A stretch of DNA of 64,000 nt, from contig NZ_CP118480.1 of NCBI RefSeq assembly GCF_030450055.1, positions 895,415-959,414 of the forward strand, in the 5' to 3' direction. This DNA is from Gallaecimonas kandeliae. Its GTDB lineage: Bacteria; Pseudomonadota; Gammaproteobacteria; Enterobacterales; Gallaecimonadaceae. Below, in pieces: positions 6,102-51,514 of the stretch. The notes under the pieces are model-generated. The model did not search any database. It saw only the letters and a list, made by a program, of their open reading frames with translations, and was not told where the DNA came from. Positions within the stretch are counted from its first letter, which is position 1; each line of letters starts with the position of its first letter. Position numbers and translations under genes: made by a program.

Positions 6102-7808
6102 ATGCTGTTTTCCCCTTCGCTTGTCGAACTGGGAACATCCGGCCTGCTGGGTGGTGCCTGCCTGTGCTGGTGGCAGGGGCATAGGCGCATCAAGGCCTTG
6201 GAAGGCCAACTGCTCAAAGAGCGGCGGCAGTCGCAGCTCCTGGAGCAACTGGCGAGCCAGGGGCGCAGCGGCTGGCTATGCCTGACCCCTGAACTGGATG
6301 TGGCGAGCTACAGTCGCTCCCTGGCCGACTTGCTGCCCAAGCTGGAAGACGTCCGAGGCCGCCACGTCAGCCTGCTGGAGCTGCCCCTGCAACTGGGGGC
6401 CCTGCGTCAGTGGCGTGACGGCAAATCACCCTATTTCGAACAACAGATCCCGGGTTTCCAACTCCACGGCTACCGCAAGGACGGCCAACTCTGGCTGCAT
6501 GTCCAATGCCAGCAGGGCCAACAGCGCCAGCTCAAGGAACTGCGCCGGCAACTGCAGTTGGACGGGGTCACTGGCCTGCTGAACCGCCAGGGCTTCATCC
6601 TCAAGCTGGCGTCCGAAGGCCTGGCCGACGGCGCCCTGGCCCAGCTCAACCTGCGCCGCTTTCGCCTCCTTAACGACAACCTCGGCCATGACGCCGGCGA
6701 CAGCCTGCTGAGCCGCCTGGGCGAACTGGTCAAGGGCGCCCTGCACCATGGCGAATTCGCCGCCCGCCCCGACGGCGACACCTTCTGGGTCCGCTTCTGC
6801 GGCGACGACTGGGCGCCGCGCCTGGAGGCCCTGCTGCGGGTGCTGGAAAGTGCCGTCGGCCAGATCAACCGTGACGGCTATCCCCTGGCGGTGAAGGCCG
6901 GGGTCTGTGTCGGCGAGCCGGACTTGGAGATCTGGGAGTGCCTGCGCCGGGCGGATCTCGCCTGCCATCTGCCGTCCGAACTGCCCTGGGTCAAGTTCAG
7001 CGCCGATCATCCGGTGCTGGTGGAGCGCCACCAGGCCTCCGTCTGGGCCAGGAAGGTCAGCCAGGCCATCAACAACGACGATTTCCTGCTCTTCTACCAG
7101 CCCCTCAAGGCCCTCAAGCCCCAGCACGGCCCGCTGAGGGTGGAGGTGCTGGTGCGGATGCTGGGTGACCAGGGCGAGATGCTGAGCCCGGGCCGTTTCC
7201 TGGCCGCCACCGAGCATTTCCAGCTCACCAACCGCCTTGACCACTGGGTGCTGAAGGCGGTGATCGACTGGCTGAGCCGCCACCCCGACCTGCACGACCA
7301 GCTGGTGCTGGCCGTCAACCTCAGCGGCCAGAGCCTCTCTGACTGCCGTTTTGCGTTGCAGATCCGCGACTGGCTGCGCGCCGCCGGCGTGCCGGCCAAG
7401 ACCCTCTGCATCGAGATCACCGAATCGGTGGCCATCGACAGCCTCAAGGAAGCGCGGCGTTTCATGGAAGCCTTGCAGCAAGAAGGGGTGCGTTTCGCCC
7501 TGGACGATTTTGGCAGCGGCTTTTCCTCCTTCCGCTACCTGCAGGTGTTGCCTGTGGATTACGTCAAGATTGACGGCAGCCTGGTGCGGGACCTGCTCAA
7601 CAGCCCCAGGGACAGGGCCATAGTGCGGGGCATAGCGGCGGTCTGCCGCGGCTTGTCATTGCCGGTGGTGGCGGAGTTCGTGGATTCGCCGACCTTGCTG
7701 AACTACGTGCGGCGGCTGGGACTGGATTATGCGCAGGGCAACCTCATCGGTCGCCCTTCCCGGTTGGATCTGCTGCCCCTGGAGTGGCCGGAGCAGCAGG
7801 AGGCTTGA
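6102..7808 (+). CDS. GGDEF/EAL hybrid protein with degenerate GGDEF
   Basis: This 568-aa protein has one N-terminal membrane segment (residues 8-26), a PAS-like stretch (about 50-140), a GGDEF domain (150-300) and an EAL domain (315-560). The GGDEF site reads PDGDTF at residues 223-228, so cyclase activity is doubtful. The EAL signature is EVLVR at 348-352 instead of EALxR. The other metal and catalytic residues look kept: N406 in NLSG, E438 in EITES, DDFGSG at 468-473, K489 in KIDGS and E525. I infer a c-di-GMP phosphodiesterase or c-di-GMP-responsive protein. A good ribosome-binding site (AGGGAGAG) precedes the ATG. It is monocistronic. Confidence 0.88.
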   Translation: MLFSPSLVELGTSGLLGGACLCWWQGHRRIKALEGQLLKERRQSQLLEQLASQGRSGWLCLTPELDVASYSRSLADLLPKLEDVRGRHVSLLELPLQLGALRQWRDGKSPYFEQQIPGFQLHGYRKDGQLWLHVQCQQGQQRQLKELRRQLQLDGVTGLLNRQGFILKLASEGLADGALAQLNLRRFRLLNDNLGHDAGDSLLSRLGELVKGALHHGEFAARPDGDTFWVRFCGDDWAPRLEALLRVLESAVGQINRDGYPLAVKAGVCVGEPDLEIWECLRRADLACHLPSELPWVKFSADHPVLVERHQASVWARKVSQAINNDDFLLFYQPLKALKPQHGPLRVEVLVRMLGDQGEMLSPGRFLAATEHFQLTNRLDHWVLKAVIDWLSRHPDLHDQLVLAVNLSGQSLSDCRFALQIRDWLRAAGVPAKTLCIEITESVAIDSLKEARRFMEALQQEGVRFALDDFGSGFSSFRYLQVLPVDYVKIDGSLVRDLLNSPRDRAIVRGIAAVCRGLSLPVVAEFVDSPTLLNYVRRLGLDYAQGNLIGRPSRLDLLPLEWPEQQEA

Positions 7809-11278: not shown

Positions 11279-11639
11279 GGGGCCGATCAGGATTCGACGG
11301 GGATCGCGAAACCCAAGGTGCATGCCGAGGTGCGGTTGGCCTCGTAAAAAAACCGCAAAAAAATAGTCGCAAACGACGAAACTTACGCACTCGCTGCCTA
11401 ATAAGCAGTAGAGAGCCCTTCCCCCTTAGCCCGCCTGTCGGCTTTGGATCAGGAAGGTCAAACTTGACAGGATCGCGTGGCGGCTTCGCCTGGAGCCAAG
11501 ACGTTAAAACCAATCAGGCTCGCTGCTTGAAAGCCTGCCACTCGGCGCTCAACGCAGTTAACTAAAAGAGACGGCTAAGCATGTAGTACCGAGGATGTAG
11601 GGTTCACGGACGGGGGTTCAAATCCCCCCGGCTCCACCA
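11279..11639 (+). ncRNA. ssrA: tmRNA (transfer-messenger RNA)
   Basis: The 361-nt one-piece tmRNA begins GGGGCCGATCAGGATTCGAC and ends GGCTCCACCA; the two ends pair as the alanyl acceptor stem. The T-arm is GGACGGGGGTTCAAATCCCC. The resume codon is GCA at 11369 and the tag reads ANDETYALAA, followed by two TAA stops at 11399-11404. With SmpB it rescues ribosomes stalled on broken mRNA and tags the product for ClpXP. ssrA 3' ends are classic integration sites for islands, and an accessory insert starts directly downstream. Confidence 0.97.
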
Positions 11640-43693: not shown

Positions 43694-45760
43694 GTGAAGT
43701 CGCCCTTTACAAGAACCTACGCCGCCATACCGCTGGTGCTGCTGGCGGTGCTGGCCATGATGATACTGCCGCTGCCGCCTTGGCTTATCGACACCCTCTT
43801 CACCTTCAACATAGTGCTGGCGGTGCTGGTGCTGCTGGTGGCGGTGTCGGCCCGCCGGCCCCTGGAGTTCTCGGTCTTCCCCACCATACTGCTGGTGGCC
43901 ACCCTGATGCGCCTGACGCTGAACGTGGCCTCAACCCGGGTGGTGCTGCTCAACGGCCACAACGGCTCCGACGCCGCCGGTAAGGTGATCCAAGCCTTCG
44001 GCGAGGTGGTGATCGGCGGCAACTATGTGGTGGGCATGGTGGTCTTCGTGATCCTGATGATCATCAACTTCGTGGTGATCACCAAGGGCGGCGAACGGAT
44101 CTCCGAGGTGGCGGCCCGCTTCACCTTGGACGCCATGCCCGGCAAGCAGATGGCCATCGACGCCGACCTCAACGCCGGCGTCCTCGACCAGGCCCAGGCC
44201 AAGCAGCGCCGCCAGGAAGTGGCCAGCGAGGCCGACTTCTACGGCGCCATGGACGGGGCCTCCAAGTTCGTGCGCGGCGACGCCGTCGCCGGCCTGATGA
44301 TCCTGGTCATCAACCTGTTGGGCGGCCTGGCCATAGGCGTCTTCCAACATGGCCTCTCCGGCGGCGACGCCTTCAAGCTCTATGCCCTGCTGACCATAGG
44401 CGACGGCCTGGTGGCGCAGATCCCGTCCTTGCTGCTGGCCACGGCCGCGGCCATCATAGTCACCCGGGTCAACGACGAATCGGAGATGTCCGATCAAGTC
44501 CAGCAGCAGCTGCTGGCCTCGCCGAGGGTGATCTGGACGGCGGCATCGGTGATGACGGTGCTGGGCCTTATTCCCGGCATGCCGACCCTGGCTTTCCTGG
44601 GCTTTGGCGCCGTGCTGGCCTTCGCCGCCTGGCGCCAGGGCCAGGTGGTGCAGGTGGAGGAGCGGGACCAGGTCCACGAGGATCTCGCCAAGCAGCTGCA
44701 GCAGGAAAAGCCCCTGGCCTGGGACGATCTGCCTCAGGTGGACGCCCTGGCCATCGACCTCGGCTACCGGCTGGTGACGTTGGTGGACAGGGACCAGGGC
44801 GCCGAGCTGCTGGGCCGGGTGCGGGGCGTGCGCAAGACCTTGTCCGAACAGATGGGCTTCCTGGTGCCTGAGGTGCGCATCCGCGACAACCTGCAACTGG
44901 GGGCCAGCGAGTACCGCATCAAGCTCGGCGGCGTCACAGTCGCCCGCGGCGAGGTGGACCCGGAGCGACTGATGGCCATCCAGAGCGGCGAGGTCTACGG
45001 GGTGCTGGACGGCGAGCTGGCGGTGGAGCCGGCCTACCAGATGGAGGCCGTGCTGATCGCCCCCGACCAGAAATCCAAGGCCCTCAACCTCGGCTATTCG
45101 GTGGTGGACAGCGCCACCGTCATCGGCACCCACCTCGGTAAGGTGATGCGCGAACACCTGGACGAGCTCTTCGGCCATGACGAAGCCCTGGCCCTGTCCG
45201 AACGCCTCAAGGGGCTGTCGGAGAAGCTGGCCGAGAGCCTCAATACCCAGCTCAATCCCATACAGCTGCTGCGGGTCTACCGCCAGTTGCTGGCCGACCA
45301 GGTCAGCCTGCTGGATATCCGCACCATAGCCACCACCCTCATCGACAGCTGCGAGCTGACCAAGGATCCGGTGCTGTTGGCCGCCGACGTGCGCTGCGCC
45401 CTCAAACGCAGCCTGATCCGCCAGGCCATAGGGGAGCGAGAGCAGCTCACCACCATGACCCTGGACGACAAGCTGGAGCAGACCTTGATGAAGGCCCTTA
45501 ACCAGGCCCAGCAGGGCGGCAAGGTGGCCCTGGACAGCTTCCCCATAGAGCCCAGCCTGCTCGGCAAGCTGCAGCAGGTGATGCCGCAGCTCAAGGACGA
45601 GATGCAGCGCCAGGGCCATCCGCCGGTGCTGCTGGTCGTGCCGCAGCTGAGGCCGCTGCTGGCCCGCTATGCCCGCACCTTCGCCCGCGGCCTCAAGGTA
45701 CTGTCCTACAACGAGGTTCCGGAGAAGATGCACATAGACGTGGTCGGGACTTTGGGTTGA
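43694..45760 (+). CDS. flhA: Flagellar export protein FlhA
   Basis: The 688-aa protein starts at a GTG with AGGGGAAAG upstream. It has eight hydrophobic segments in the first 330 residues with the FHIPEP-type signature LVATLMRLTLNVASTRVVL, EVAARFTLDAMPGKQMAIDADLNAG and a large cytosolic domain that docks chaperone-substrate complexes. It ends the fliMNPQR-flhBA operon. About 190 bases follow before the riboswitch. Confidence 0.96.
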   Translation: MKSPFTRTYAAIPLVLLAVLAMMILPLPPWLIDTLFTFNIVLAVLVLLVAVSARRPLEFSVFPTILLVATLMRLTLNVASTRVVLLNGHNGSDAAGKVIQAFGEVVIGGNYVVGMVVFVILMIINFVVITKGGERISEVAARFTLDAMPGKQMAIDADLNAGVLDQAQAKQRRQEVASEADFYGAMDGASKFVRGDAVAGLMILVINLLGGLAIGVFQHGLSGGDAFKLYALLTIGDGLVAQIPSLLLATAAAIIVTRVNDESEMSDQVQQQLLASPRVIWTAASVMTVLGLIPGMPTLAFLGFGAVLAFAAWRQGQVVQVEERDQVHEDLAKQLQQEKPLAWDDLPQVDALAIDLGYRLVTLVDRDQGAELLGRVRGVRKTLSEQMGFLVPEVRIRDNLQLGASEYRIKLGGVTVARGEVDPERLMAIQSGEVYGVLDGELAVEPAYQMEAVLIAPDQKSKALNLGYSVVDSATVIGTHLGKVMREHLDELFGHDEALALSERLKGLSEKLAESLNTQLNPIQLLRVYRQLLADQVSLLDIRTIATTLIDSCELTKDPVLLAADVRCALKRSLIRQAIGEREQLTTMTLDDKLEQTLMKALNQAQQGGKVALDSFPIEPSLLGKLQQVMPQLKDEMQRQGHPPVLLVVPQLRPLLARYARTFARGLKVLSYNEVPEKMHIDVVGTLG

Positions 45761-45953
45761 AATGTGCAACGATGGTGCAGGAAAAGTGTAACAGGGAGAG
45801 GGGTTTAGCTTTTTTAACGGCGCTGCAGCCCAGGTCTGGTACGACGTGGCATCTTTTTAACGACTAGGCACTTTACGTCGCAAGGATGCAACTATATGCT
45901 ACATCCTGAATCGTTTAGATTCTGTTTAAGTCTGCGGGGCCTGTCCCCAAATA
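45761..45953. other. Gene-free leader upstream of the riboswitch
   Basis: No gene is supported between flhA and the riboswitch. The region is AT-richer than its surroundings and contains TTTACG..TATATG promoter-like hexamers near 45870-45900 and a small GGGG/CCCC hairpin at about 45936-45949. The promoter of motY-lafK must lie here, but I cannot fix it. Confidence 0.5.
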
Positions 45954-46053
45954 CTTAGCTGTTGAAAAAGGCAAACTGTTGCGAAAGCGCAGGACGCAAA
46001 GCCTCCGGTCTTAGGGAGTTCGCTCCTATGATAGCGGGGTTGCCAGAGCTGAG
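45954..46053 (+). ncRNA. Cyclic di-GMP-I riboswitch (GEMM-I)
   Basis: The sequence follows the GEMM-I consensus: P1 strands CTTAGCT/AGCTGAG, the AAGGCAAAC entry, P2 capped by a GAAA tetraloop, the invariant GGACGCAAAGCCTCCGG, P3 closed by a TTCG loop between GGGAG and CTCCT, then ATAGCGGGGTTGCC. The G before CAAAC and the C in GTTGCC correspond, by my alignment to Vibrio cholerae Vc2, to ligand-contact positions G20 and C92. It lies about 300 bases upstream of motY-lafK in the same direction. I see no clear terminator or anti-terminator, so on/off polarity is open. Confidence 0.93.
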
Positions 46054-46348
46054 GTCTTTGCCTCGGAAGTAGATACTGATGAGCGTCGGTAAGCATATCT
46101 GCATGTGCTTGACTGCTTCCACGGCATTCCTTTCTCTTGATGATGGGTGGGTGCTTAGTGCCCCTGTCTGTCGGCATGCCTTTTCCAGCTACTCGTTTCC
46201 ATTAACTGAGTAGGCACGACATCATGATGTACGTTGCAGCTGGACAAAGTGCGTTTTCCTCAACCGCCCGTCGTTACGGGCCGGAACCCTGGATCTTGTC
46301 CAAGGGCTAGCCGCCCCTGTCCGACAATCCCTGTTCCGCTGTTGAGGT
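46054..46348 (+). promoter_or_regulatory. Long leader between riboswitch and motY
   Basis: About 295 bases with no supported gene. It includes GGGTGCTTAGTGCCC and GGCATGCC followed by TTTT (46173-46187) and a pairing CCGCCCGTCGTTACGGGCCGG near motY. These may be part of the riboswitch expression platform, but none is a convincing terminator. Confidence 0.4.
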
Positions 46349-47200
46349 ATGAAAATGCACAGAACATCCCTGGCCCTAGGCCTGGGGGGCGTGGCGTTTT
46401 TGTCCCTAGCGGCCAAGACGCCCCTGCCCGCCATGGACCACGTGGCCTGGCAATTTAAAGGCGATCCCTTCGTCTGCACCCTGGCGTTGCCGGTGGCGGG
46501 CTTCGGCAAACTGCGCTTTGAGAAATGGGCGGGGGAAGACCTGGCTTTCGAAGCCAGCCCCAGCCTGCCGCTCAGCGCCGATGCCGAGGTCAGCCTGTCC
46601 TGGCGTAACGCCCCCTGGCAGGAACCTGTCCAGAGCCTCCGCTATCCCGCCACCCGGCAAGGGCCACAGCTGCGCTTCTCGGCGCCGGCCAGCCAGGAGC
46701 TGCTGGAGGCCATGGACAAGGGCCGTTGGGCGGTGCTGACCCTGCCCCAGGGGGAGATGCAGGTGCCCAGTGTCCACTGGCAGGGGGCGGCCACCGCCTT
46801 CCGTACTTGCCTGGACCACCAGGCCCCCATCTCCTACCGCCAGGCCAGGGACCAGTCCCTCTACTACGGCCTTGGCGTGCGCAGCCTGACGTTGGCCCAG
46901 CGCCAGCAACTGGCCAAACTGGCCCGCTACGTCCAGCTGGACAAGGCGGTCAGGGCGGTGCTGGTGGACGCCTATACGGACGACACCGGTGACCATGTGG
47001 CCAACCTGCAACTGGCCAGGGAGCGCGCCGCCGATGTGCGCGCCGCCCTGGTAGAAGCCGGTCTGCCCAAACGCCTGATCCAGACCCGTGCCCACGCCGA
47101 CCGTTACCCCGCCACCGACAACAAGAGCGCCAGGGCCCGTGCCCTGAACCGCCGAGTCACCTTGAGGGTGCTCAAGGACAAGAAAGGGAAGAGCTCATGA
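46349..47200 (+). CDS. motY: MotY-like sodium-motor T-ring protein
   Basis: The 283-aa exported protein has an N-terminal signal, a MotY_N-type domain (about 30-150, with WQFKGDPFVCTLALPVAGFG and the second Cys region FRTCLDH) and a C-terminal OmpA peptidoglycan-binding domain (VLVDAYTDDTGDHVANLQLARERA and ARALNRRVTLRVL). MotY forms the T ring that anchors PomAB-type sodium stators. Its place directly before lafK is typical of lateral flagellar loci. It overlaps lafK by four bases. It is the first gene downstream of the riboswitch. Confidence 0.88.
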   Translation: MKMHRTSLALGLGGVAFLSLAAKTPLPAMDHVAWQFKGDPFVCTLALPVAGFGKLRFEKWAGEDLAFEASPSLPLSADAEVSLSWRNAPWQEPVQSLRYPATRQGPQLRFSAPASQELLEAMDKGRWAVLTLPQGEMQVPSVHWQGAATAFRTCLDHQAPISYRQARDQSLYYGLGVRSLTLAQRQQLAKLARYVQLDKAVRAVLVDAYTDDTGDHVANLQLARERAADVRAALVEAGLPKRLIQTRAHADRYPATDNKSARARALNRRVTLRVLKDKKGKSS

Positions 47201-48513
47201 ACAAGACCATATTGCTGGTGGACCCCAGAGGCGCCACCGATCCTCTCTTCGGCCAGCTGGAAGCGGCCGGTTACCGCCTGGAGCGGGCCCTGGATTGCGC
47301 CACCGCCCTGGTCAGCCTCCATCAACATCAGCCGATGCTGGTACTGGTGGACGCCGACCTCGACACCCCGCTCAGCGAATTCGTCGCCCGCGTCAAGCGC
47401 AGCCACCCCAAGTGCGCCCTGGTGACCCTGGTGCGCGCCCACCAGAGTGTCAAGGCCAGTGAGGCCATGCGCCAGGGCGCCATGGACTACCTGCTCAAAC
47501 CCTTCAACAGCGACCAGCTGCTGGCCGTGGTCAACCACGCCTTCAGCTTCTTTGAGCCCATTCCCAACATGGTGGTGGCCTCCCAGGCCAGCCGTCAGGT
47601 GCTGCTGCTGGCCAAGAAGGCGGCCCAGACCAACGCCTCCATCCTCATCGGTGGCGAGTCCGGCACCGGCAAGGAGCGCCTGGCCCAGTACATCCACGAA
47701 CAATCCCAGCGGGCCGAAGGCCCCTACGTGGCCGTGAACTGCGCCGCCATCCCCGAGACCATGCTCGAGTCCACCCTCTTCGGCCACGCCAAGGGCGCCT
47801 TCACCGGCGCCGTGGCCAGCCAGGTGGGCAAGTTCGAGCTGGCCAACGGCGGCACCTTGGTGCTGGACGAGATCTCCGAGATGCCCCTGGAGCTCCAGGC
47901 CAAGCTGCTGCGGGTGCTGCAGGAGCGGGAGTTGGAGAAGCTGGGCTCCAACCAGAAGGTGAAGCTGGACGTGCGCATCATCGCCGCCAGCAACAAGGAT
48001 CTGCGCGCCGAGGTGGCCAAGGGCCGTTTCCGTGAAGATCTCTTCTACCGCCTGGACGTGCTGCCCCTGGCCTGGCCGGCCCTGCGGGAGCGCCAGGAGG
48101 ACATACTGCCCCTGGCCCGCCACTTCCTCGAGAAATACGCGGATAGCAGCCGTTTCGAGCTGCACCCCGACGCCGCCCGCGCCCTGCTGGCCCACCCTTG
48201 GCCCGGCAACGTGCGGGAGCTGGAAAACGTCATCCAAAGGGCGCTGATCCTGGCCCGCGGCCTGGTGCTGCAGCCCGAGGATCTGATGCTGCCCCGCAGC
48301 GCCGTCCCCGAGCTGGAGCCCGGCTTCGGCTCCCTGCGGGCCTCCAAGAAATGCGCCGAGTTCCAGCACGTGCTGGACACCCTGCGTCGCTTCAACGGCC
48401 ACCGCCAAAACACCGCCGAGGCCCTGGGGGTCACCACCAGGGCGCTGCGCTACAAGCTGGCCGCCATGCGTGAACAGGGCATCGACATCAACCAACTGGT
48501 CGTCACCGGCTAG
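47197..48513 (+). CDS. lafK: Sigma54-dependent flagellar regulator LafK
   Basis: The 438-aa protein has an N-terminal receiver domain (1-115, with D52 and K101), an AAA+ domain with Walker A GESGTGKE (153-160), GAFTGA at 200-205 for sigma54 contact, Walker B LVLDE (221-225), and a Fis-type C-terminus NTAEALGVTTRALRYKLAAM. LafK activates early lateral flagellar operons with sigma54. The receiver acidic pocket is reduced (LLVDPRG instead of DD), so phosphorylation may not matter. No partner kinase gene is next to it. Confidence 0.9.
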   Translation: MNKTILLVDPRGATDPLFGQLEAAGYRLERALDCATALVSLHQHQPMLVLVDADLDTPLSEFVARVKRSHPKCALVTLVRAHQSVKASEAMRQGAMDYLLKPFNSDQLLAVVNHAFSFFEPIPNMVVASQASRQVLLLAKKAAQTNASILIGGESGTGKERLAQYIHEQSQRAEGPYVAVNCAAIPETMLESTLFGHAKGAFTGAVASQVGKFELANGGTLVLDEISEMPLELQAKLLRVLQERELEKLGSNQKVKLDVRIIAASNKDLRAEVAKGRFREDLFYRLDVLPLAWPALRERQEDILPLARHFLEKYADSSRFELHPDAARALLAHPWPGNVRELENVIQRALILARGLVLQPEDLMLPRSAVPELEPGFGSLRASKKCAEFQHVLDTLRRFNGHRQNTAEALGVTTRALRYKLAAMREQGIDINQLVVTG

Positions 48514-48521
48514 GGAGCAAC

Positions 48522-48848
48522 ATGAAAATCGACAACATCAGCACCCAGGCCAGCTTGCTGCAGAGCCTGGAACGGATGAGCCGCGAAGCGGCCGGTATTG
48601 CCCCCAACAGCCTGGGCGGCCAGGAAGGCGCTTCCTTCGGCCAGGTCATGGCCCAGGCCATCGACAAGGTGGATTTGGACCAGAAGAGCGCCGGCGCCCT
48701 GGTGTCGGCCGTGGAAACCGGCCAGAGCGACGACCTGGTGGGGGCCATGGTGGCCAGCCAGAAGGCGGGCCTGAGCTTCTCGGCCCTGGTGCAGGTGCGC
48801 AACAAGCTGGTGTCGGGTTTCGACGACATCATGCGCATGCCCCTCTAA
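48522..48848 (+). CDS. fliE: Flagellar hook-basal body protein FliE
   Basis: The 108-aa protein matches FliE, which joins the MS ring to the rod: SFGQVMAQAIDKVDLDQKSAGALVSAVETG and FSALVQVRNKLVSGFDDIMRMPL at the C-terminus. It lies nine bases after lafK and heads fliEFGHIJ. Confidence 0.93.
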   Translation: MKIDNISTQASLLQSLERMSREAAGIAPNSLGGQEGASFGQVMAQAIDKVDLDQKSAGALVSAVETGQSDDLVGAMVASQKAGLSFSALVQVRNKLVSGFDDIMRMPL

Positions 48849-48858
48849 GGACTGACCC

Positions 48859-50526
48859 ATGGCAGAACTGATCAACGCCCAGCCGGCTTCCCCCTTGCTG
48901 GATAACCTCAAGAGCCTGGGCAGCCGCTGGCGGCGCCTGTCCGGCGACAGCCGCTCCGTACTGGTGATAGCCCTGCTGGCGGCCCTGGTGGCCAGCGCCA
49001 TCGTCGTCATCCTCTGGACCAGCAGCCGCCAGTACGTGCCCCTCTACGGCAAGCAGGAGGCCTATGACAAGGCCAGCATCCTCGACAACCTGGAGAAGGA
49101 CGGCATCGACTTCCGCCTCGACGCCGCCACCGGCAACGTGCTGGTGCCCCAGGACAAGCTGGCCGACGCCCGCATGCGCCTGGCCGCTCACGGCATCAAG
49201 GCCGCCCTGCCGGCGGGCCTCGATGACCTTGGCAACATCTCCAGCCTCGGCACCAGCCAGTTCATGGAATCGGCCCGCTACCTGCACGCCCTGGAAGGGG
49301 AGCTGGCCCGTACCATCATGGCCCTGGACTCGGTGCGCAGCGCCCGGGTCCACCTGGCGGTGCCCAAACGCACCCTCTTCGTGGGCCGCGAGGAACAAAA
49401 GCCCAGCGCCGCCATACTGGTGGATCTGGCCTCACCCTTGGACCGCGGCCAGGTGGAGGCCATCCTCAACCTGGTGGCCGGGGCCATCCCCGGCATGAAG
49501 GCCAGCGCCGTCTCAGTGGTGGACCAGGAGGGCCAGCTGCTGTCGGCCGACCTGGAAGAAGCCGCCAACAGCGGCCGCCTCACCGACAAGCAGATGGACT
49601 ACGGCAGCCGCCTGGAAGAGCGCATGGCCCAGCGGGCCCGCGACATGCTGAGCCCGCTGCTGGGCCAGGACAACTTCCGGGTGCAGGTGGCCGCCAACCT
49701 CGACTTCTCCGCCGTGGAGGAGACCCGCGAGGCCCTGGACGACAAGCCGGTGATGGTGAGCGAGACCGCCAAGCGCGACAACAGCACCGACAACATCGCC
49801 CTCGGCATCCCGGGGGCCCTGACCAACAGGCCGCCGGTGGCCCAGAACAACAGCGCCACCGCCGCCAACAGCAACACCAACACGGCTGAGGATCCCCAGA
49901 AGGCCGTCAGCCAGCGGGAGGAGACCAGCCGCCGCTTCGAGACCGGCAAGGCCGTCACCCATACCCAGTACGCCCAGGGCCGCCTCAAGCAGCTGTCGGT
50001 GTCGGTGCTGCTCAACAGCGCCAAGGCCCCCAAGGGCGGCTGGAGCCAGGCCGAGCTGGACCAGCTGTCCGACATGGTCAAAAACGCCGTGGGCTTCGAC
50101 GCCCAGCGCGGTGACCAATTCAGCCTGCACGCCTTCAGCTTCGCCCCCGCAGCCCCGGCCCTGGCCGAGCTGCCCCAGCCCCAGTGGTGGCAGGACCCGA
50201 TGTGGCGCGACTACCTGCGTTATGGCCTGGGCGCCTTCATGCTGCTGCTGCTGATCCTTTTCGGCATCCGACCCCTGGTCAAACACCTGGTGCGGCCCCT
50301 GCCGGCCGGTGACGAGGAGCTGGATTACCTCCAGGAAGAGCAGGCGCCAGCTCCTGTCCAGGCCCTTGAGGGCAGTGGCGAGGAAGCGCTGCTGGCCGCC
50401 TTGCCGCCGCCGGGCTCTGAGCTGGAAGTGCAACTCAAACACCTGCAACTGCTGGTGGACAAGGAGACCGCCAGGGTCGCCGAAGTGGTCAAGCAATGGG
50501 TGAGCAACGATGAACGACATGACTGA
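48859..50526 (+). CDS. fliF: Flagellar MS-ring protein FliF
   Basis: The 555-aa protein has two membrane segments (about 34-55 and 455-475) flanking the ring-building motifs, with YVPLYGKQEAYDKASILDNLEKDGIDF, VRSARVHLAVPKRTLFV and VAGAIPGMKASAVSVVDQEG. The C-terminal tail binds FliG. It overlaps fliG by 17 bases, which suggests translational coupling of the two stoichiometric ring proteins. Confidence 0.96.
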   Translation: MAELINAQPASPLLDNLKSLGSRWRRLSGDSRSVLVIALLAALVASAIVVILWTSSRQYVPLYGKQEAYDKASILDNLEKDGIDFRLDAATGNVLVPQDKLADARMRLAAHGIKAALPAGLDDLGNISSLGTSQFMESARYLHALEGELARTIMALDSVRSARVHLAVPKRTLFVGREEQKPSAAILVDLASPLDRGQVEAILNLVAGAIPGMKASAVSVVDQEGQLLSADLEEAANSGRLTDKQMDYGSRLEERMAQRARDMLSPLLGQDNFRVQVAANLDFSAVEETREALDDKPVMVSETAKRDNSTDNIALGIPGALTNRPPVAQNNSATAANSNTNTAEDPQKAVSQREETSRRFETGKAVTHTQYAQGRLKQLSVSVLLNSAKAPKGGWSQAELDQLSDMVKNAVGFDAQRGDQFSLHAFSFAPAAPALAELPQPQWWQDPMWRDYLRYGLGAFMLLLLILFGIRPLVKHLVRPLPAGDEELDYLQEEQAPAPVQALEGSGEEALLAALPPPGSELEVQLKHLQLLVDKETARVAEVVKQWVSNDERHD

Positions 50527-51514
50527 ACGCAGCGATCTGGACAGGGCCGCCATACTGATGCTGTCCATGGGCGAGGCCACGGCCGCCAAGATCATGGCCC
50601 GCCTGGGCCGTGACGAAGTCCAGGCCCTGTCCCAGCGCATGGCCAAGCTGAGCGGCGTCTCCACGGCGGAAGCCAAGTCGGTGATGCAGGGCTTTTTCGA
50701 ACACTACCGCGAGCACAGCGGCATCAGCGCCGCCTCCCGCCAGTACCTGGAGAAGACCCTGGATCTGGCGCTGGGCAAACGCCTGGCCCGCGGCATGGTG
50801 GACAGCATCTACGGCGACGCCCTGCGCCAGGAGCTCAAGGCATTGCAATGGGTGCCGGCCGAGACCCTGGCTCGCTTCTTCCGCAACGAACATCCCCAGC
50901 TGCAGGCCGTGCTGCTGGCCTTCCTGCCGCCGGAAAACGCCTCGGCGGTGCTGGGCGCCTTGCCCGGTGAAGCCCATGACGATCTCCTCTACCGGGTCGC
51001 CAACCTCAAGGAGGTGAGCGAGCAGGTGCTGGACGAGCTCAAGGCCACCCTGGCCCGCTGCCTGCAATTCGTCTCAGAGCAGTCCACCGCCAAGGTGGAC
51101 GGGGTGCGCCAGGCCGCCGACATCCTCAACCGCTACCAGGGGGACCGCGGCGCCCTGATGGAGATGCTCAGGCTGCACGACCAGGACACGGCCGGCATGG
51201 TGGCCGACAACATGTACGACTTCCTGATCCTGGCCCGCCAGTCCGACGAGGTGCTCCAGGCCCTGGTCCAGGAAGTGCCCACCGAAACCTTGGCCCTGGC
51301 CCTCAAGGGTGCCGACGCCGTCGTGCGCGACGCCCTGCTGGCCGCCTTGCCCAAGCGCATGGCCCAGGGGTTGGAAGACGCCCAGAAAGCCATGGGCCTG
51401 GTGCCGCTGTCCCGTGCCGAGCAGGCCAGGGGCGAGATCATGGCCCTGGTGCGCCGCCTGCACGAAGAGCAGCAGCTCAACTTCCAGCTCTTCGAGGAAA
51501 AGACGGTCAGCTAA
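50510..51514 (+). CDS. fliG: Flagellar motor switch protein FliG
   Basis: The 334-aa protein matches FliG: an N-terminal FliF-binding domain (AAILMLSMGEATAAKIMARL), a middle domain with EHPQLQAVLLAFLPPENASAVLGALP, and a C-terminal torque domain containing the charged helix (LALKGADAVVRDALLAALPKRMAQGLEDA). It converts stator force into rotation. Confidence 0.96.
   Translation: MNDMTERSDLDRAAILMLSMGEATAAKIMARLGRDEVQALSQRMAKLSGVSTAEAKSVMQGFFEHYREHSGISAASRQYLEKTLDLALGKRLARGMVDSIYGDALRQELKALQWVPAETLARFFRNEHPQLQAVLLAFLPPENASAVLGALPGEAHDDLLYRVANLKEVSEQVLDELKATLARCLQFVSEQSTAKVDGVRQAADILNRYQGDRGALMEMLRLHDQDTAGMVADNMYDFLILARQSDEVLQALVQEVPTETLALALKGADAVVRDALLAALPKRMAQGLEDAQKAMGLVPLSRAEQARGEIMALVRRLHEEQQLNFQLFEEKTVS

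Follow-up and report, generated by a model that had tools for sequence, protein, structure and literature searches.

A class I c-di-GMP riboswitch aptamer with conserved placement upstream of the lateral flagellar genes motY and lafK

In the 64,000-nucleotide stretch of Gallaecimonas kandeliae DNA analysed here (the window), a class I c-di-GMP riboswitch located in the leader or intercistronic region probably governs motY-lafK-fliEFG, and the most likely direction, which we infer, is OFF at high c-di-GMP. The preliminary description of this DNA had already read the element as a riboswitch acting in cis on motY and lafK, and this core reading now draws strong support, at the level of sequence, from the placement of the aptamer in related genomes, from covariation and from the residues expected to contact the ligand. 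Our results suggest that the novelty lies in the conserved placement of a known riboswitch class before lafK and in its regulatory use, and that the RNA may switch surface swarming directly at the top of the hierarchy. Outside Vibrio, the shutdown of lateral flagellar expression by c-di-GMP is unsettled, and the authors who studied it in S. putrefaciens point to protein sensors (PMC8203827, PMC9061725). A riboswitch at the top of the hierarchy would be a direct route, and exchanging a single base of the aptamer should free swarming from c-di-GMP control.

A cmscan search of the whole window against Rfam 15 revealed a match to c-di-GMP-I (RF01051) at 45960-46047 on the forward strand with 81.1 bits (E = 2.2e-14), well above the gathering score of 35. 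The match spans the full model (1-87) with no non-standard pair marked, and GAAA and TTCG loops are both present. The near-consensus GEMM-I aptamer with stems capped by these loops, for which the same covariance model had been proposed as a check, was thus borne out. By eye, a P1 helix can be drawn between CTTAGCT (45954-45960) and AGCTGAG (46047-46053), so that the complete aptamer occupies 45954-46053 (+); these ends are exactly the limits first drawn for the element. On sequence grounds, the RNA is a typical representative of RF01051: it shares with the family the full-length match, the helices, the loops and the contact residues, and differs only in the genes it precedes, an operon encoding a lateral flagellar activator. 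The one other Rfam match above cut-off in the 64 kb is tmRNA, whose gene (RF00023) lies at 11279-11639 with 246.8 bits.

The aptamer sits in a gap of 588 bases that separates flhA of the lateral system (43694-45760; TIGR01398, 779.8 bits against a cut-off of 772.1) from lateral motY (46349-47200; Pfam MotY_N 1.2e-16, OmpA 5.6e-14), the first protein gene behind it. These are followed by lafK (47197-48513), encoding the sigma-54-dependent lateral flagellar regulator, and by fliE, fliF and fliG of the lateral system (48522-51514; Pfam/NCBIfam), all six genes being on one strand (+); FlgD, FlgE, two FlgF/G-type rod proteins, FlgI and FlgK are encoded further downstream. The start of motY is either 46349 or, more likely, the ATG at 46355, as judged by eye from the Shine-Dalgarno (SD) sequence GAGG at 46344-46347 and from the start context (46344-46357, +), ATGCACAG, which is identical in G000, G002 and G004. 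The distance from the aptamer to the likelier start is 307 nt, and the earlier placement of motY-lafK about 300 bases downstream on the same strand therefore stands with either start. Upstream of the aptamer we noted a promoter-like element, TTTACG-N17-TATGCT (45872-45900, +), of putative function. It agrees with the consensus at 8 of 12 bases, too few to be reported by the consensus scan, and the form TTTAC[GC]-N17-TATGCT precedes the aptamer model by 51-59 nt in each of the four locus-bearing genomes of the genus (G000, G001, G002 and G004); it was not found in the Marinobacter locus described below. Read-through transcription from flhA might also reach motY-lafK.

The stretch 45950-46370, which includes the aptamer, folds more stably than its shuffled versions (z = -3.0, with 1 of 100 as stable). 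In the alignment, conservation of the leader peaks in the block at 46185-46243 (+), CCAGCTACTC...GAGTAG...AGCTGG, whose beginning is similar to the complement of the aptamer's 5' strand. When 46140-46265 was used as a DNA query, matches besides the window itself came from two of the other 98 genomes, G004 (79%) and G002 (78%). Just behind this block, the strand at 46249-46264 (+) is predicted to pair with the ribosome-binding site of motY in a minimum free energy (MFE) helix with 46341-46360, comparable helices being predicted in G004 and G002. By eye, and with alignment made only within groups, the leaders share little between families past the aptamer. The preliminary description had regarded a long leader without an obvious terminator as unusual, a view that did not hold: the window stands at the top of a range of 106-307 nt in 27 leaders, and the leader of Vc1 in Vibrio cholerae has 225-244 nt and no apparent terminator or anti-SD sequence in the account of PMC4744006.

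To examine the distribution of this arrangement, we searched 394 genomes of the order with the window LafK protein as the query; the matches were sorted and the top set was complete. They split into 41 genomes with at least 416 bits and a remainder with at most 410 bits, so that LafK proteins below the 416-bit limit, possibly including more distant true ones, lie outside the count. One genome (G102) was left out because its contig ends before lafK. In 27 of the 40 assessable genomes, belonging to five families, Rfam scans detected a same-strand aptamer of the c-di-GMP-I clan just upstream of motY-lafK, or of lafK where motY was not found; the search for a conserved GEMM element in relatives that had been advised at the outset thus succeeded. 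By family label, the positive loci number 4/4 in f1, 3/3 in f2, which we take to be Shewanella, 16/17 in f25, 3/3 in f7, 1/8 in f6 and 0/5 in f21. Gene order at the 27 loci was checked by tblastn, the distances given above rest on starts chosen by eye, and for two of the aptamers (G005 and G117) the best-scoring model is the variant c-di-GMP-I-GGC (RF03167). Genomes with aptamers bear just one to seven each, and the placement before lafK is therefore not a matter of chance. The fifth genome of the window's genus (G003) is without a close LafK.

Two family labels could be assigned to known genera by protein identity. In f25-g35, the FlrC-like protein is 83-98% identical to that of A. caviae in six genomes and 60-70% in the other eight of 14, and we assign this genus to Aeromonas; the five LafK proteins of f21 share 79-93% identity with the V. 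campbellii protein, and f21 is assigned to Vibrio. As a side observation, the plasmid collection PLSDB contains an Aeromonas caviae record, NZ_AP026896.1, whose size (4.94 Mb) suggests a complete chromosome entered under the label of a plasmid.

A second scan of the 13 negative genomes under laxer settings recovered one decayed aptamer, in the Aeromonas genome G154, with 28.3 bits and hence below the cut-off. It lies between flhA and lafK (L090, 3131-3221), and G154 is a possible natural riboswitch knock-out within a genus whose 11 other lafK loci, of 12, retain the aptamer. In the remaining 12 genomes no aptamer appeared in the laxer scan, although motY and lafK were present with upstream DNA, and at the five f21 loci neither a c-di-GMP-I aptamer nor a class II match was found at E values up to 10. 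A lateral flagellar system can do without the aptamer, as 12 of the 40 lafK loci lack one. A second database, of genome contigs, contributed 13 loci encoding a relative. The two closest, in Marinobacter xestospongiae (L033; LafK 72% identical) and in a gammaproteobacterial MAG (L044; 53% over 159 residues), carry an aptamer at the same position, and the other 11, distant, loci showed none. Nor was any aptamer above the cut-off found at the named V. campbellii lafK locus or at seven FlrC-like loci with short flanks.

To evaluate selection on the RNA, we aligned 30 aptamers, namely those of the 27 census loci, of L033 and L044, and the decayed copy of G154. The 22 pairs of the model are formed in 96.6% of cells, compared with 83.5% in shuffles, and double changes occur at 12 of them. 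The covariation score was 0.417 against 0.183 for shuffles, none of 500 shuffles scoring as high, and slid versions of the structure each scored at most 0.096. For one of the five covariation measures, the count of further pair types, 47 of 500 shuffles attained the observed value.

Under the scenario that we propose, a promoter about 50-60 nt upstream would start the RNA, and the aptamer would be its first large structured element. At high c-di-GMP, the ligand would shut P1, the leader would lower the output of MotY and LafK, and the lateral operons activated by LafK would be off; at low c-di-GMP, LafK would be produced and swarming flagella assembled. LafK is required for lateral promoters in A. 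hydrophila, where PlafA activity drops from 976 to 22 MU (PMC5013049), and most genes of the lateral cluster of Pseudoalteromonas SM9913 need the LafK homologue (PMC10304486). When S. putrefaciens loses the phosphodiesterase PdeB, its c-di-GMP rises and its lateral flagellar genes are expressed less (PMC8203827, PMC9061725), in agreement with an OFF switch. We favour the initiation of motY translation, possibly coupled to Rho, as the level at which the switch would act, since the scan gave no intrinsic terminator and the ribosome-binding site of motY lies in a long predicted helix; this is the weak step of the scenario and was adopted by default.

Four switching devices were considered. An intrinsic terminator was rejected, as a consensus scan of 45700-46400 found none, against a mean of 1.0 in shuffles. 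Release of the SD sequence through the 3' strand of P1 was rejected as well: with P1 formed or absent, the energy needed to open the ribosome-binding site is the same to within 1.0 kcal/mol in 19 of 27 leaders, and in the remaining eight it goes up in five and down in three. An anti-aptamer strand, AGCTG..GATAAGG against CCTTATCCAGCT, catches the eye in three genomes of the genus, where one double change occurs, as well as in two other lineages. RNAduplex energies compared with dinucleotide shuffles, however, gave p values of 0.027-0.997 over the 27 leaders, with p < 0.05 in only two of them, G316 (0.027) and G338 (0.033), neither in the window's genus. In addition, swaps of this strand between groups did not favour the own pairs overall, and a test of contiguity (p = 0.093-0.993) placed none of the 27 leaders above shuffles. 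We therefore dropped the anti-aptamer strand as evidence and keep it as a hypothesis. As for occlusion of the ribosome-binding site, the helix is present in the MFE structures of G000, G004 and G002, and its opening energy was reached by 7/40, 17/40 and 8/40 shuffles, respectively, so that occlusion is within the range of shuffles in three of four genomes of the genus, and mostly so overall. It stands out in G001 (0/40, with a different helix) and in G253 and G338 (1/40 each), less so in G070 and G117 (3/40) and in G028 and G229 (4/40), and is reversed in G343 and G085 (38/40), G005 (37/40) and G352 (35/40).

An alternative is an ON switch, in which c-di-GMP binding would raise motY-lafK expression, for example by blocking a hairpin that competes with P1. 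In the window such a hairpin, CTGAGG/CCTCGG, can be drawn by eye at 46049-46066 (+), where it would compete with the 3' strand of P1, and similar P1-competing hairpins can be drawn right behind P1 at the same site in some other lineages. Furthermore, V. cholerae Vc1 is an ON-type class I riboswitch with a long leader, and lower c-di-GMP cuts Vc1-dependent expression (PMC4744006). Against this, the direction in S. putrefaciens is the opposite, higher c-di-GMP going with lower lateral expression (PMC8203827), and no terminator-like hairpin was found in the window leader. We regard an ON switch as unlikely.

A further alternative is that proteins, either LafK itself as a sensor of the FlrA/FleQ type or a PilZ protein, carry the c-di-GMP control, and that the RNA is minor or vestigial. 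The authors of the S. putrefaciens study deem an effect via FlrA2 and MotL likely (PMC9061725). The decay of the aptamer in G154 and the dozen loci without any would also agree with a dispensable RNA; its retention with compensatory changes across several families is, however, unlike a vestige. By eye, no LFRS motif is seen at the start of the AAA+ domain in the window protein; at the arginine position the window LafK has Q, and most LafK orthologues keep R. The protein is built of a receiver-like N-terminus, a sigma-54 AAA+ domain and a Fis-type HTH (Pfam Response_reg, Sigma54_activat at 2.1e-70 and HTH_8), and it is nearer to FlrC (E = 2e-88) than to FleQ (1e-72) or FlrA (4e-67). Among the best 25 NCBIfam models listed, none is named LafK and none is at its cut-off. 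Control through proteins with a marginal RNA seems quite unlikely to us; protein routes may nevertheless operate beside the riboswitch, and the chances we give to the alternatives are not exclusive of one another.

To reveal the history of the arrangement, a maximum-likelihood tree was built from 49 proteins, 43 LafK and 6 FlrC-like, with L044 left out as too short. The 43 LafK sequences, that of V. campbellii included, are set apart from the FlrC-like sequences with support of 100/100, and the window LafK thus lies on a branch apart from the FlrC-like proteins, of which its own genome encodes a second copy at C1:1174302. The 13 LafK proteins without an aptamer (12 genomes and V. campbellii) make up one side of a branch supported at 98/96, and the lineages branching nearer to the FlrC-like sequences bear the aptamer; three backbone forks have bootstrap values of only 81-85%, and the deep branch order is uncertain. 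Since the aptamer-less proteins form a single supported clade, we consider it probable that the arrangement is old, with a single loss in the lineage of Vibrio and f6 and one decay in Aeromonas. The LafK proteins of G252 (f6) and of Marinobacter L033 (NZ_JAKZAK010000015.1) group with other families, the latter with the window's genus at 100/99, from which the lateral cluster seems to move together with its aptamer; for L033, a transfer of cluster and aptamer, or else a misassigned contig, is probable. We give about an even chance to the broader hypothesis that gating by c-di-GMP through this riboswitch is ancestral to LafK-type lateral flagella; the RNA would have stood before motY-lafK in the common ancestor of the clusters, travelled when clusters were exchanged, and been lost once toward Vibrio and most of f6, the promoter in Vibrio being under the DNA-binding regulator OpaR. 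If this is true, the effect of c-di-GMP on lateral gene expression in Shewanella, ascribed to proteins, would run at least partly via the RNA. The clade of LafK without the RNA offers a natural comparison.

The ligand of the window RNA is predicted from its class and contact residues to be c-di-GMP. Among the 30 aptamers, the position equivalent to G20 of Vc2 is G in 29, the window included, and that equivalent to A47 is A in all 30. A near-invariant C column, which we take to be that of C92, is an approximate assignment, as the ruler of Vc2 positions used for G20 and A47 places 92 on no C. Class I relatives with an A at position 20 prefer or accept 3',3'-cGAMP, and the single A at this position among the 30 belongs to the homologue in G252 (L071, 3781-3870, minus strand), which also has a C at the equivalent of A18. 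That the aptamer is real and its ligand here is another cyclic dinucleotide such as 3',3'-cGAMP is nonetheless very improbable, given the G at position 20 in the window and in 28 of the 29 other aptamers. In Vc2, G20, A47 and C92 are the residues that contact c-di-GMP (PMC4744006).

Least probable of all is that the aptamer serves an unannotated short ORF or small RNA in the leader instead of motY-lafK: a 27-codon ORF (46227-46310, MYVAAGQSAF...) does begin in the most conserved block, with a similar MYVAAG start by eye in G004, but it has no good SD, it diverges in length and sequence (16 codons in G002), and the block was found by DNA search only in three genomes of the genus among 99 searched, while the aptamer precedes motY or lafK elsewhere too.

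Taking control of motY-lafK by the riboswitch as the preferred reading, we compared it with known systems. Cd1, in the flgB leader of Clostridioides difficile, is likewise a class I riboswitch atop a flagellar hierarchy, but it terminates transcription when bound and acts on the main flagellar operon (PMC6366702), whereas no terminator was found in the window and the system is a second, surface-induced one. Vc1 and Vc2 of V. cholerae (gbpA and VC1722) are also class I riboswitches of a gammaproteobacterium, with different targets and, for Vc1, the ON direction (PMC4744006). OpaR of Vibrio parahaemolyticus acts at the same point of the hierarchy, in the promoter region of the lafK operon, but is a DNA-binding protein rather than an RNA (PMC4406679); no aptamer above the cut-off was found at lafK in the five f21 genomes and V. 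campbellii. The c-di-GMP-II riboswitch of V. parahaemolyticus was considered as a counterpart and rejected, as it lies between VPBB_A1460 and VPBB_A1461 and lafK is VPBB_A1405 (PMC4406679). In the available text of the open-access literature searched, we found no report of a riboswitch at lafK; an older, subscription or Rfam-table listing may exist. Just one paper there, PMC4406679, mentions both lafK and a riboswitch, and the element in question is the unrelated class II one. In passages of four papers that mention riboswitches, lateral flagella and c-di-GMP (PMC8273514, PMC9061725, PMC10269520 and PMC4406679), riboswitches come up as reporters or as this class II element, and the targets of Aeromonas c-di-GMP riboswitches named in the review PMC6366702 are fimbrial and chitinase genes, not lateral flagella.

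The preliminary description had also named a GGDEF/EAL protein at 6.1-7.8 kb of the window as a candidate contributor to the signal. This suggestion found no backing, since the protein is one of 61 GGDEF matches in the genome (60 over the cut-off) and no tie to the RNA was found. By eye, the GGDEF site of the protein (6102-7808) is degenerate (DGDTF) and its EAL motifs look intact, for which reason it is probably a phosphodiesterase. The whole genome (one contig, 3.84 Mb) contains three c-di-GMP-I aptamers at E values of at most 0.001, the other two being far from that of the window and 5 kb apart from each other (L002 and L003; G000:C1:3805670-3805744 and 3810676-3810750). Behind each of them, as judged by eye, an ORF encodes a secreted metalloprotease-like protein that contains an HExxH motif, its earliest possible start being about 50-70 nt away; the two proteins look paralogous.
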